A stretch of 64,000 nt of DNA, from the NCBI RefSeq assembly GCF_014211915.1, contig NZ_CP060040.1:372001-436000 (forward strand), written 5' to 3'. This DNA comes from Burkholderia cenocepacia. GTDB lineage: Bacteria; Pseudomonadota; Gammaproteobacteria; Burkholderiales; Burkholderiaceae. The position numbers and the translations under genes were made by a program. Of this stretch, positions 15,493 to 25,001 are shown piece after piece. The stretch's first letter is position 1, and every line of letters starts with the position of its first letter. Below the pieces are notes generated by a model that was given only the letters and a program-made list of their open reading frames with translations, was not told the DNA's origin and did not search any database.

Positions 15493-18400
15493 ATGCTACA
15501 AATGTCCCGGCGCCAGTTCCTGAAGGTGACGGCCACGTCGCTTGCCGGATCGAGTCTTGCCCTGATGGGCTTTTCTCCGTCCGAAGCGCTGGCCGAAGTC
15601 CGACAGTACAAACTGGCGCGCACCGTCGAAACGCGCAACACCTGTCCTTACTGTTCAGTGGGTTGCGGCATCCTGATGTACAGCCTCGGAGACGGCGCGA
15701 AGAATGCGCAGCCGAGCATCATCCATATCGAAGGCGATCCCGACCACCCGGTCAATCGCGGCACGCTGTGCCCGAAGGGCGCGAGCCTGATCGATTTCAT
15801 CCACAGCCCGAACCGCCTGACGCACCCCGAGTATCGTGCGCCCGGCTCGGACAAGTGGGAACCCATCTCGTGGAACGACGCGCTCGACCGCATCGCGAAG
15901 CTGATGAAGGCCGACCGCGACGCGAACTTCGTCGAGACGGCCGAAGACGGCGCGAAGGTCAACCGCTGGCTCACGACCGGCATGCTGGCCGCGTCGGCGG
16001 GCAGTAACGAGGTCGGCTACCTGACGCACAAGACCATCCGCAGTCTCGGGATGCTCGCATTCGACAATCAGGCGCGTGTCTGACATGGCCCGACGGTGGC
16101 AGGTCTTGCCCCGACGTTTGGCCGTGGAGCGATGACGAACCATTGGGTCGACATCAAGAACGCGGACGTGATTCTCGTGATGGGCGGCAATGCAGCCGAG
16201 GCCCATCCGTGCGGTTTCAAGTGGGTAACGGAGGCGAAGGCGCACCGCAAGGCGCGGCTGATCGTCGTCGACCCGCGCTTCACGCGTACGGCCTCGGTGG
16301 CCGATTACTACGCGCCGATCCGCACCGGCACCGACATCGTCTTCCTGGGCGGCGTCATCAACTATCTGCTGACGAACGACAAGATCCAGCATGAGTACGT
16401 GAAGAACTACACGGACTTCTCGTTCATCGTGCGCGAGGATTTCGCGTTCAACGACGGCATCTATTCCGGCTACGACGCCGAGAAGCACGCGTACCCGGAC
16501 AAATCGAGCTGGGACTACGAGCGCGGCGACGACGGCTTCGCGAAGGTCGATCCGACACTGCAGCATCCGCGTTGTGTATACAACCTGCTGAAGCAGCACT
16601 ACGCGCGCTATACGGCGGAGATGGTCCAGCAGGTCTGCGGCACGCCGAAGGAGAAATTCCTGAAGGTGTGCGAGATGCTCGCGACCACGGCCGTGCCCGG
16701 CCGCGCCGGCACGGTGCTGTACGCGCTCGGCTGGACCCACCACTCGATCGGCGCGCAGATCATCCGCACCGGCGCGATGGTGCAGTTGCTGCTCGGCAAC
16801 ATCGGCATCGCCGGCGGCGGGATGAACGCGCTGCGCGGCCACTCGAACATCCAGGGGCTGACCGACCTCGGGCTGATGTCGAACCTGCTGCCGGGCTACA
16901 TGACGCTGCCGATGCAGGCCGAGCAGGATTTCGACGCGTACATCAAGAAGCGCGTGCAGGAACCGCTGCGGCCGAACCAGCTCAGTTACTGGAAGAACTA
17001 CAAGGCGTTCCACGTCAGCTTCATGAAGTCGTGGTGGGGCGACGCGGCCACCGCCGAGAACAACTGGGCGTACGACTACCTGCCGAAGCTGGACAAGCAG
17101 TACGACCTGCTGCAGGCGATCGAGCTGATGAATGCCGGCAAGATGAACGGCTACATCTGCCAGGGCTTCAACCCGCTCGCGGCGGCGCCGTCGAAGGTGA
17201 AGACGGCGGCGGGCCTCGCGAAGCTGAAATGGCTCGTGATCATGGATCCGCTCGCGACCGAGACGTCCGAGTTCTGGAAGCACCACGGCGACTACAACGA
17301 CGTCGATGCCTCGAAGATCCAGACCGAGGTGTTCCGTCTGCCGACCACCTGCTTCGCGGAGGAAAACGGCTCGCTAGTGAGTTCGAGCCGCGTGCTGCAG
17401 TGGCACTGGAAGGGCGCGGAGCCGCCGGGCGAAGCGAGGAGCGACCTCGAGATCATGTCGGGGCTGTTCCTGCGCATGCGCAAGCTGTACCAGAAGGACG
17501 GCGGCAAGTATCCGGACCCGATCGTGAACCTGACCTGGCCGTACGCGAACCCGGAGAGCCCGACGCCCGAGGAACTGGCGATGGAGTTCAACGGGAAGGC
17601 GCTCGCCGATCTGCCCGATCCGAAGGACCCGGCGAAGACGCTCGTGAAGAAGGGCGAGCAGCTCGCCGCGTTCGCGCAACTGAAGGACGACGGCACGACC
17701 GCGAGCGGCTGCTGGATCTTCTGCGGCGCGTGGACCCAGGCCGGCAACCAGATGGGGCGGCGCGACAACTCCGACCCGACCGGCATCGGCCAGACGCTGA
17801 ACTGGGCGTGGGCGTGGCCGGCGAACCGGCGCATCCTGTACAACCGCGCGTCGTGCGACGTCGCGGGCAAGCCGTTCGACCCGACCCGCAAGCTGATCGG
17901 CTGGAACGGCAGCGCGTGGAAGGGCGCCGACGTGCCGGACTTCAAGGCGGACGAACCGCCCGAAAACGGGATGGGGCCGTTCATCATGAATCCGGAAGGC
18001 GTCGCGCGCTTCTTCGCCCGCGCGGGGATGAACGAAGGTCCGTTCCCCGAGCACTACGAGCCGTTCGAGACGCCGCTCGGCGCGAACCCGCTGCATCCGA
18101 ACAACTCGCTGGCGCTGAACAACCCGGCCGCCCGCGTGTTTCCGGACGACCGTGCGTCGTTCGGCAAGGTGGCGGACTTCCCGCACGTGGCGACCACGTA
18201 CCGGCTGACCGAGCACTTCCACTACTGGACCAAGCATGCGCGGCTGAACGCGATCATCCAGCCCGAGCAATTCGTCGAGATCGGCGAAGACCTCGCGAAG
18301 GAAGTCGGCGTCGCGCATGGCGAGCGCGTGAAGGTGTCGTCCAAGCGCGGCTACATCATCGCGGTCGCCCTCGTCACGAAGCGGATCAAGCCGCTGACGA

Positions 18401-19489: not shown

Positions 19490-20112
19490 GCCACGACGAC
19501 CCCAACCTGATCGTCCGCTACACGCCGAACGAGCGCACGAACCACTGGATCACCGCGATCACGTTCGTGCTGCTCGCGTTGTCCGGGCTCGCGCTGTTCC
19601 ATCCGTCGATGTTCTGGCTGACCGCGCTGTTCGGCGGCGGCCAGTGGACGCGGATCCTGCATCCGTTCGTCGGCCTCGTGATGTTCGTGTCGTTCGCGAT
19701 TCTCGTGGTGCGCTTCTGGCACCACAATGCGCTCGACGCGGACGATCGCCAATGGCTGAAGCAGATCGGCGACGTGCTGACCAACCAGGAAGACAAGCTG
19801 CCGCCGGTCGGGCGCTATAACGCCGGACAGAAGCTGCTATTCTTCACGCTGGTGGCGTGCCTGCTGCTGCTCCTGCTGTCGGGAATCGTGATCTGGCGGC
19901 GCTACTTCTCGTTCTACTTCCCGATCGGGGTGATCCGCGCGGCCGCTGTCGTGCATGCCGTGGCGGCCTTCGTGCTGATCGCGAGCATCATCGTGCACAT
20001 TTACGCGGCGTTGTGGGTGAAGGGTTCGATCGGTGCGATGGTGCGCGGCACCGTCACGCTGGGCTGGGCCCGCAAGCATCACCCGAAGTGGTTCCGTGAA
20101 AGCGTGAAATAA
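19486..20112 (+). CDS. fdnI: Formate dehydrogenase cytochrome b556 gamma subunit
   Basis: The 208-residue protein has four transmembrane helices and the FdnI/FdoI family opening [20 protein letters not shown]. Histidines in the helices (NHW at about 20, [24 protein letters not shown]) are those expected to hold two b haems. It anchors the complex in the inner membrane and passes electrons to quinone. The ATG overlaps the fdnH stop, so the two are translationally coupled. Confidence 0.93.
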
Positions 20113-20180
20113 CGCAGCGGAGCGGGGCGGTACGCCGATTGCGGCGTGCTGCTCCGCCCCCACCGCAGGAATCGCCCGAA

Positions 20181-20200
20181 AGCGCCGATTCGTCGGCGCT
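20181..20200 (+). terminator. Perfect 8-bp hairpin after fdnI
   Basis: AGCGCCGA and TCGGCGCT flank a TTCG tetraloop. The stem is G/C-rich but no T-run follows (TAGTTGG), so it may be an attenuator, RNA-stabilising element or weak terminator instead. It sits 68 bp after the fdnI stop and just upstream of the nested palindrome. Confidence 0.5.
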
Positions 20201-20205
20201 TAGTT

Positions 20206-20489
20206 GGGGGCTGTTTGCGCATGGAACGCGCATGCGAATGCCCGAAATCGCCCGCAGGGCAAGGAGTGAGGAGCGCCGTTTGGCCGAGCCAAACAAGTGA
20301 CGAGCGACGCCGCCATGTGGGCGATTTCGGGCATTCCCCTAAAATGGATAATTAGACACGGGTTGCCACGAGAAGGGCCGCTCGCCACGTTGCGCTCCTT
20401 GCGAATACGTCAGTATTCGCTGCGTCGCGCGCCTCGCGAGCGGCCCTTCTCGTGGCAACGCATGCGCGTTCCATGCGCAAACAGCCCCC
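20206..20489. repeat. Nested perfect inverted-repeat element (three-way-junction fold)
   Basis: Five perfect inverted repeats are nested within 284 bp. The outer arms 20206-20236 and 20459-20489 are 31 bp and match without mismatch. Inside, 20236-20253 pairs with 20319-20336 (18 bp) and 20362-20385 pairs with 20436-20459 (24 bp). Each inner stem encloses its own small hairpin: GTTTGGC/GCCAAAC (20278-20284, 20288-20294) and GCGAATAC/GTATTCGC (20401-20408, 20413-20420). The helices abut at shared bases 20236 and 20459. The fdhE ribosome site begins 2 bp beyond the right arm. I do not recognise the element. Confidence 0.95.
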
Positions 20490-20504
20490 TTGGAAGATAT
20501 TTTC

Positions 20505-21440
20505 GTGACACAACGCATTCTGGAGCCGACCGAGATCTCGGCACTCGATCATTCGGCCATTCCGCGCTTTCGCCTGCCGGAGCGCGCGACCGCGTTCGCG
20601 GCGCGCGCCGCGCGGCTGCGCAAGCTGGCCGACCTGAACCCGATCAGCGGCTACCTGCGGCTGATGGCCACCGTCGCCGACGCGCAGCACGCGACGCTGC
20701 AGGCGCTGGAGCTGCCGCTGCCGTCGAAGGAAGCGATCGCACGTGCGCAGGAACATTCGATGCCGCTCGTGCCGGCGCTCGACGGCGAACGCAATGCGCG
20801 CTGGCGCGCCGTGCTGTACGAACTGCTCGACCGCGTCGAAAGCGCCGGGCTCGTCAACCCGCAGCTCGCGAAGCTGCTCGACCGGTTGCGCCTGATGGCG
20901 CCGGCCGAGCTCGACGCGCAGGCTGATGCGATCCTCGCGCTGCGCTTCGCCGAGGTCGACCCGGCCACCGCGCCGTTCCTGATGGCCGCGCTGCAGGTCG
21001 CATGGACCGACCTCGCGAGCCGCGTGACGCCCACCGATGTCCCATATCTCGACCAGCCGGGGCTGTGCCCGGTGTGCGGCACGCACCCGGTCGCGAGCGT
21101 CGTGCGGGTCGGCGGCCAGTATCAGGGCTACCGTTTCCTGCAGTGCGGGCTGTGCACGACCGAGTGGCACATGGTGCGCACCAAGTGCTCGCACTGCGAT
21201 TCGACGAAGGGCATCGCGTATCACGGGATCGAAGGCGGCAGCGAAGCCGTCAAGGCCGAATCGTGCGACGAGTGCAAGACCTATCGCAAGATCGGCTATC
21301 AGGAGAAGGACTACGAGTTCGAGCCGCTGGCGGACGATCTCGCGAGTCTCACGCTCGACCTGCTGATGAACGAGGCCGGCTACCAGCGCAGTTCGCCGAA
21401 CCCGCTGCTGTGGCCGGACGTGTCGCGGGAAGCGGACTGA
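20505..21440 (+). CDS. fdhE: Formate dehydrogenase accessory protein FdhE
   Basis: From GTG 20505, with GGAAGA 7-8 nt upstream, the protein has 311 residues, the FdhE length. The C-terminal half carries four CxxC pairs typical of the family: CPVCGTHP (about residue 188), CGLCTTEW, CSHCDSTK and CDECKTY. These bind iron in a rubredoxin-like way. FdhE is needed for activation of exported selenium-molybdenum formate dehydrogenases. A TTG at 20490 in the same frame is less likely because it would overlap the ribosome site. selA starts 72 bp after the stop. Confidence 0.92.
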   Translation: MTQRILEPTEISALDHSAIPRFRLPERATAFAARAARLRKLADLNPISGYLRLMATVADAQHATLQALELPLPSKEAIARAQEHSMPLVPALDGERNARWRAVLYELLDRVESAGLVNPQLAKLLDRLRLMAPAELDAQADAILALRFAEVDPATAPFLMAALQVAWTDLASRVTPTDVPYLDQPGLCPVCGTHPVASVVRVGGQYQGYRFLQCGLCTTEWHMVRTKCSHCDSTKGIAYHGIEGGSEAVKAESCDECKTYRKIGYQEKDYEFEPLADDLASLTLDLLMNEAGYQRSSPNPLLWPDVSREAD

Positions 21441-24906: not shown

Positions 24907-25001
24907 GGAAGGCATTCGTATCCGGTGGTACGGCTGGACTTCAAATCCAGTTGGGGTGTCAGACACTCCCGGGTCAGTTCGACTCTGGCTGCCTTCCGCC
25001 A
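24907..25001 (+). tRNA. selC: tRNA-Sec (anticodon TCA)
   Basis: The 95-nt sequence starts GGAAGGCA and ends TGCCTTCCGCCA, giving the long 8-bp acceptor stem of tRNA(Sec), discriminator G and an encoded CCA. The anticodon arm CTGGACTTCAAATCCAG reads TCA, matching UGA. A long extra arm (TTGGGGTGTCAGACACTCCC) and the T-arm GGGTCAGTTCGACTCTGGC complete the fold. It completes selA and selB in a single locus with its selenoprotein. Confidence 0.97.

Follow-up and report, generated by a model that had tools for sequence, protein, structure and literature searches.

The 284-bp palindrome lying between fdnI and fdhE in Burkholderia cenocepacia is very likely a non-autonomous DNA transposon (MITE) of Burkholderiaceae, with IS5-type ends and with arms that appear to be kept matched by copying and selection. 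This reading was drawn from sequence comparisons over the window, that is, the whole stretch of 64,000 nucleotides analysed, and over collections of other genomes. Between the two kinds of mobile unit that the initial annotation had proposed, MITE-like and REP-like, the former is favored because dispersed copies, empty sites, duplication of TA at the clean sites and an IS with matching ends have all been found. Like other MITEs, the element has terminal inverted repeats and contains no transposase gene, 284 bp being too short for one.

Architecture of the palindrome

The recomputed pairing agrees exactly with the three stems of 31, 18 and 24 bp and the two hairpin tips of 7 and 8 bp described initially, whose positions are listed in Table 1. 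Base 20236 belongs to two stems, as does base 20459, so that at the junction only one use of each can form. The initial remark that no mismatches occur holds for the stems and tips of the copy in the window, but not for the interiors of hairpins A and B, nor for other copies. When positions 20190-20510 were folded as single-stranded DNA, a free energy of -129 kcal/mol was obtained (z = -16.4), and none of 100 shuffles was as good. Perfect 17-bp inverted seeds spanning no more than 320 bp occur in the 64-kb window only inside the 284-bp element, and none occurred in 20 shuffles of the window in two-base blocks. A scan of 20080-20560 found no promoter and one terminator-like site, on the minus strand, against 0.6 expected. 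The G+C content of the element is 61% on average, compared with 66% for the host window.

Table 1. Features of the palindrome and its borders, with positions in the window.
Feature	Position	Strand	Description
Terminator-like hairpin (20181-20200) and start of the T-run holding the insertion	20181..20205	+	Sequence; eight of eight empty sites read
Left terminal inverted repeat, 5' arm of outer stem (31 bp)	20206..20236	+	31 perfect pairs with 20459-20489; aligned to 97 other copies, whose usual end is AGGGTCTGTTTACAT; GGGGGCTGTTTGCGCAT in the window's copy
Hairpin A (17-18 bp stem)	20237..20335	+	Stem A, 18 perfect pairs, 20236-20253 with 20319-20336; tandem G.A-type steps inside on the + strand; 7-bp tip, 20278-20284 with 20288-20294, GTTTGGC-CGA-GCCAAAC
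Linker between hairpins A and B	20336..20361	+	Sequence and length variable across copies
Hairpin B (24-bp stem)	20362..20459	+	Stem B, 24 perfect pairs, 20362-20385 with 20436-20459; 8-bp tip, 20401-20408 with 20413-20420, GCGAATAC-GTCA-GTATTCGC
Right terminal inverted repeat, 3' arm of outer stem (31 bp)	20459..20489	+	Perfect pairing with left arm
TT, ribosome site GGAAG (20492-20496) and GTG start (20505) of fdhE	20490..20507	+	Sequence; gene name from the initial annotation

Copies of the element

The initial annotation had proposed that copies be counted across Burkholderia genomes, and the count describes a dispersed repeat: matches were found in 59 of the 65 genomes of the genus, the host's own included (E up to 0.001, partial matches counted), and in 75 of 299 genomes, from 9 of 25 genera, in a sample of the family that includes the genus members. 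The host's own genome carries four full copies, one that lacks hairpin B, and fragments. Among genomes taken one per GTDB species, at least 120 stretches match a 25-base motif from hairpin A, and all 80 among the matches listed belong to Burkholderia, Paraburkholderia or Caballeronia. The seven records of the plasmid collection that match the element also belong to these three genera, and no match to the element was found in the phage records.

Among 101 loci examined, 98 were aligned after removal of L005, which lacks hairpin B, L053, whose extraction was misaligned, and L110, which coincides in place with L047, and an identity cut of 95.5% left 55 non-redundant copies, 275-291 bp in length. 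The 98 copies represent 66 sites, of which 16 are occupied in at least two genomes, as grouped by a loose cut on flank similarity. Within genomes, 120 pairs of copies have a median identity of 93.4% and a maximum of 99.7%, and the copies L044 and L071, which lie at two sites of one genome and are 99.7% identical, point to recent movement. As for the fold itself, the recent origin suggested initially does not agree with its presence in copies from several genera. Distant copies (L234, L239, L240, L241 and L243) have other stem sequences with the same architecture, and one-hairpin forms exist with A (L235, L237) or with B (L236, L238). For example, the copy without hairpin B in the host's own genome (L005, positions 1501-1691; C2:2010257-2010447) has lost it at its foot relative to L091, which occupies the same site, and has kept the outer stem and hairpin A; such a loss would be expected if the hairpin forms on single-stranded DNA in replication.

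We also found an IS110-family transposon inside hairpin A of two different copies, L231 (G010:C1:361600-363500) and L232 (G010:C2:3506100-3508000), at the same place near CAAGGAG. DEDD_Tnp_IS110 and Transposase_20 were found in the transposon of L232. Hairpin A looks like a specific target of that IS110 type.

Empty sites and target duplication

Empty sites, another check that had been suggested initially, were sought with the joined flanks and could be read at 18 of the 31 loci tried, fdnI-fdhE among them: four of the five in the host's own genome, and 14 of 26 additional ones. For the other 12 of the 26 additional loci, and for L004, there was no spanning empty site among the stretches compared. 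Exact duplication of TA is found at two of the 18. At L070, the filled site reads AACC-TA[element]TA-GGGTT and the empty site reads AACCTAGGGTT in two genomes, and at L090 the filled site reads GGGC-TA[...]TA-GCG and the empty site GGGCTAGCG. Two more of the 18 are near-exact, namely L089, where CTCTA is followed by two substitutions beside the TA, and L041, with one extra base. At the remaining 14, the bases of the relatives are not one clean TA and are ambiguous or altered; some relatives do have a TA at L024, at L098 and at the fdhE site, and bases are missing in the comparison at L002 and again at the fdhE site. At the clean sites, the filled and empty alleles together show insertion at TA with duplication of the TA. 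In 61 of the 98 copies, AGGG...CCCT is bordered directly by T on the left and A on the right, which fits a YTAR target.

An IS5-family candidate mobiliser

When the pattern TAGGGNCTGTTYNC was looked for in 12 genomes, genome G021 was found to have ends in two pairs, separated by 828 bp and 830 bp. The 828-bp IS between the ends codes for a 263-aa IS5-family transposase, which scores 287.4 bits with NF033580, against a curated cut-off of 110, and is also over the cut-offs of DUF4096 and DDE_Tnp_1. The ends of the IS are TAGGGTCTGTTTACATTC and TAGGGTCTGTTCACATTC, both at TA, while the consensus end of the MITE is TAGGGTCTGTTTACATATGG, from which the copy in the window deviates with GGGGGCTGTTTGCGCATGG. 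The stretch common to the consensus of the element and one end of the IS, TAGGGTCTGTTTACAT, comprises only 16 bases, TA included; the consensus ends match those of an autonomous element, and the window's copy departs from them.

Five long copies of the IS were compared at their ends, and only the copy of G021 is clean at both sides; in three others the ends have partly changed, and in L249 to a greater degree. Of the 65 genus genomes, 24 contain matches to the IS, many of which are fragments, and the host's own genome has none. In the plasmid collection, 74 records match the IS, 10 of them over at least 80% of its length; the best matches are on plasmids of Burkholderia, Paraburkholderia and Pandoraea, several being annotated as 'IS5 family transposase'.

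DUF4096 elements in general were rejected as partners: where terminal repeats were seen, the ends are mostly of GAG type (13 of 30 loci) and do not match. The DUF4096 group with TAGGGTCTGTT ends, however, does match the ends of the element. Beside the end-like stretch in L045, no transposase was recognised by eye among its ORFs. As a separate observation, genome G015 has 62 DUF4096 (IS5-type) matches and no match to the MITE.

The element is probably mobilised by an IS5-type transposase. This enzyme would recognise the GGGTCTGTTTACAT ends and insert the element at TA, preferably at CTAG- or TTAA-like sites.

Concerted change of the arms

Compensatory changes, which the initial annotation had proposed to look for, are seen. 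Of the 4721 cells that the three stems and both tips comprise in the 55 copies, 98.2% are paired, compared with 92.0% in shuffles, and for the outer stem the value is 97.9%. Two-sided change is seen at 37 pairs and in 250 cells, compared with 16.1 and 43.1 in shuffles, respectively, where related copies may exceed shuffles even without structure. None of 500 shuffles reached any of the five covariation measures, a count that is not a probability, the structure being taken from one of the 55 sequences and the copies being related; slid controls gave 13-26 cells.

At the 16 sites filled in several genomes, a minimal-step count gives 25 two-sided Watson-Crick changes and 43 one-sided ones, whereas about 4.6 and 144 would be expected at the loop rate with independence. 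Many of the 25 are of transversion types, for which the single-step intermediate is not a wobble pair. For example, L027 and L059 are identical at all 115 loop positions and differ at 1 of 25 in the linker, and their outer stems already differ by one two-sided and one one-sided change. G-U accounts for 7 of 1705 outer-stem cells, and the column pair 12:284 is AU in 29 copies, GC in 19, CG in 6 and AC in 1. In the aligned copies, then, the three-stem fold is shown to be kept while the stem sequence changes, often in both arms together.

Because the arms change in concert and G-U is rare in the outer stem, the data fit a process in which one arm is copied from the other, with selection in addition, better than stepwise compensation in RNA. 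Strong selection, or conversion by other copies, could likewise produce two-sided change, and the 16-site count does not separate these. The initial proposal of maintenance at the DNA level, rather than RNA covariation, is thus borne out by the outer stem, with its joint change and few G-U cells, but less so by hairpin A, where G-U and G.A favor one strand. If arm copying operates, the arms would fold on single-stranded DNA at replication forks, one arm would be recopied from the other by template switching with removal of mismatches, and some selection for the fold would act on top.

An unusual block, TATTCATGTATGG / CCATACATGAATA, is present on both arms of the outer stem in L025 and L034, which are the same site in two genomes. 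It is as if a stretch of the stem had been replaced on both sides together.

A further reading, speculative and quite unlikely, is that the three-stem shape, and not the sequence, is the inherited unit, the arms being mutual templates in replication or transposition and the G.A hairpin a signal in single-stranded DNA or RNA. Such a hairpin-copying cycle would be reminiscent of hairpin-ended genomes, and the stems might drift to unrelated sequence while the architecture persists.

Alternative explanations

Hairpin A has a strand preference. On the + strand, its stem contains 43 G-U cells versus 2 A-C cells, and as + RNA the more stable form is found for hairpin A in 50 of the 55 copies, for the whole element in 47 and for hairpin B in 37. 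The interior of hairpin A is not an open loop, since three two-by-two steps alternate with G-C pairs: GA/GA at columns 63-64/97-98 in 46 copies (AA/GC in 6 and GC/GC in 3, so that one step is G-C/C-G there), GA/GA at columns 66-67/94-95 in 51, and at columns 59-60/101-102 GA/GA in 26 and AA/GA in 28. Tandem G.A steps, built of sheared G.A pairs, are stable on one strand only. In addition, the orientation with A first is the commoner between co-directional genes (21 versus 7, p = 0.013), in a count that is built on heuristic gene calls unstable between runs, leaves out L095 (stretch past the contig end) and miscalls L001, whose left gene is fdnI on the + strand (22 versus 7 after correction of L001 by hand). 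The one-strand preference of hairpin A is not expected from copying alone, and a role of the hairpin as RNA or single-stranded DNA is possible. One alternative is that selection on RNA is the main cause of the fold's persistence, the element being cotranscribed with its neighbouring genes and hairpin A (+) acting as a structured RNA, for example in processing, stability or termination. We consider this rather unlikely, as 39 of the 43 G-U cells are confined to two pairs and the outer stem is biased the other way, with 25 A-C cells (16 at one pair) versus 7 G-U cells and with the - strand more stable in 19 of the 55 copies versus the + strand in 6. Moreover, Rfam yielded nothing over the element at the gathering score; a threshold relaxed to E up to 10 gave nine matches, all far below their gathering scores and none credible over the element.

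The element ends 2 bp before the ribosome site of fdhE, as was noted initially, and lies behind a terminator-like hairpin. It could therefore have been selected at this site to control fdhE locally, or to insulate fdnGHI from fdhE-selAB. This is improbable, because at least 37 of the 65 genus genomes have matches spanning the joined flanks and no element, 8 genomes are seen filled, and the aligned copies are spread over many different sites. In all eight of the empty fdnI-fdhE sites that were read, the 3' arm of the hairpin and then a T-run, or TTATTT (3 of 8), directly precede the ribosome site, and in the matching pairs L018/L115, L001/L135 and L022/L136 the filled site has two T fewer than the empty one. 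An effect of the element on fdhE is possible. The filled genomes also bear on the suspicion that the palindrome is an assembly artefact: inverted reads are able to produce perfect palindromes, but the same element at the same site in eight genomes, 87-100% identical to the window's copy and with compensated differences, refutes this, and an artefact is practically inconceivable. Finally, the element is palindromic, dispersed and mostly intergenic, as would be a REP/REPIN-type element moved by a RAYT (IS200/IS605-like tyrosine transposase). However, the palindromic unit of REP/REPIN is 20-40 bp as described in PMC3733652, whereas the present unit is 284 bp with 31-bp terminal inverted repeats; with the TA duplication and the ends of a DDE-transposase IS5 element, this makes the REP-like alternative highly improbable. 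A MITE of IS5 type is thus the reading that we retain.

At 12 of 63 sites (L029, L030, L032, L073 and L089 among them), the reading frame next to the element is closed by a TAG whose T comes from the flank and whose AG comes from the element. At L089, the empty site leaves this frame open, so a gene, porin-like by eye, has been truncated by the insertion. At L029, the empty site carries a TGA stop at the place of the TAG. In addition, the window contains a SECIS_3 selenocysteine insertion element (16078-16136) and a selenocysteine tRNA gene (24907-24997), fitting a selenoprotein formate dehydrogenase cluster.

Implications and comparison with known systems

A MITE of IS5 type is a known kind of element. 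As for the family, the three-stem architecture and the concerted change of the arms, no earlier description was found as far as titles, abstract starts and passages of the open-access literature tell: none appears in the titles and abstract starts of the papers listed, a word search finds no 'Burkholderia' in PMC10969869, PMC3733652 and PMC2229807, and a word search of PMC4603805 and PMC6321483 finds no passage on a repeat of such kind. The element explains a repeat found next to many Burkholderia genes, and provides a natural system, with a candidate transposase, for measuring concerted change of inverted-repeat arms at many sites shared by related genomes. It also calls for caution: strong covariation of an 'RNA-like' kind may originate in DNA, since here a covariation test was passed although wobble intermediates are few in the outer stem.

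The IS5-family IS of Burkholderia (NF033580 group) has in common with the element the 16-base consensus end including TA and the TA/CTAG target, but it is 828 bp long and codes for a transposase, the ends alone are common, and several of its copies have altered ends. Parvovirus terminal hairpins, in which one stem closes two smaller palindromes, resemble the element in shape only. Among bacterial MITEs, Correia/NEMIS, ERIC and RUP are described as about 100-200 bp, A+T-rich and with long stem-loops (PMC2229807; MITE list in PMC3733652), and RUP is thought to be moved by IS630-Spn1, from similar ends and TA sites (PMC2229807). The present element is like them in its terminal inverted repeats, its TA ends (in most of them), its non-coding sequence and its stable folding, while these descriptions set it apart by its length of about 284 bp, its three stems, its G+C content and its partner of IS5 rather than IS630 type. 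The CIR elements of Caulobacter and Brucella also have two long hairpin arms and a linker (PMC2229807); as described there, they consist of the two arms and a linker with an exposed GANTC, whereas here an outer stem of terminal inverted repeats closes both arms. Long perfect arms that change together, as in the present element, are described for the mitochondria of Nematomorpha, where template switching was proposed as a possible mechanism, and copying of one arm from the other was proposed for quasi-palindromes as well as for these palindromes (PMC6649704). The Nematomorpha repeats, however, lie in mitochondrial coding genes and are not mobile.
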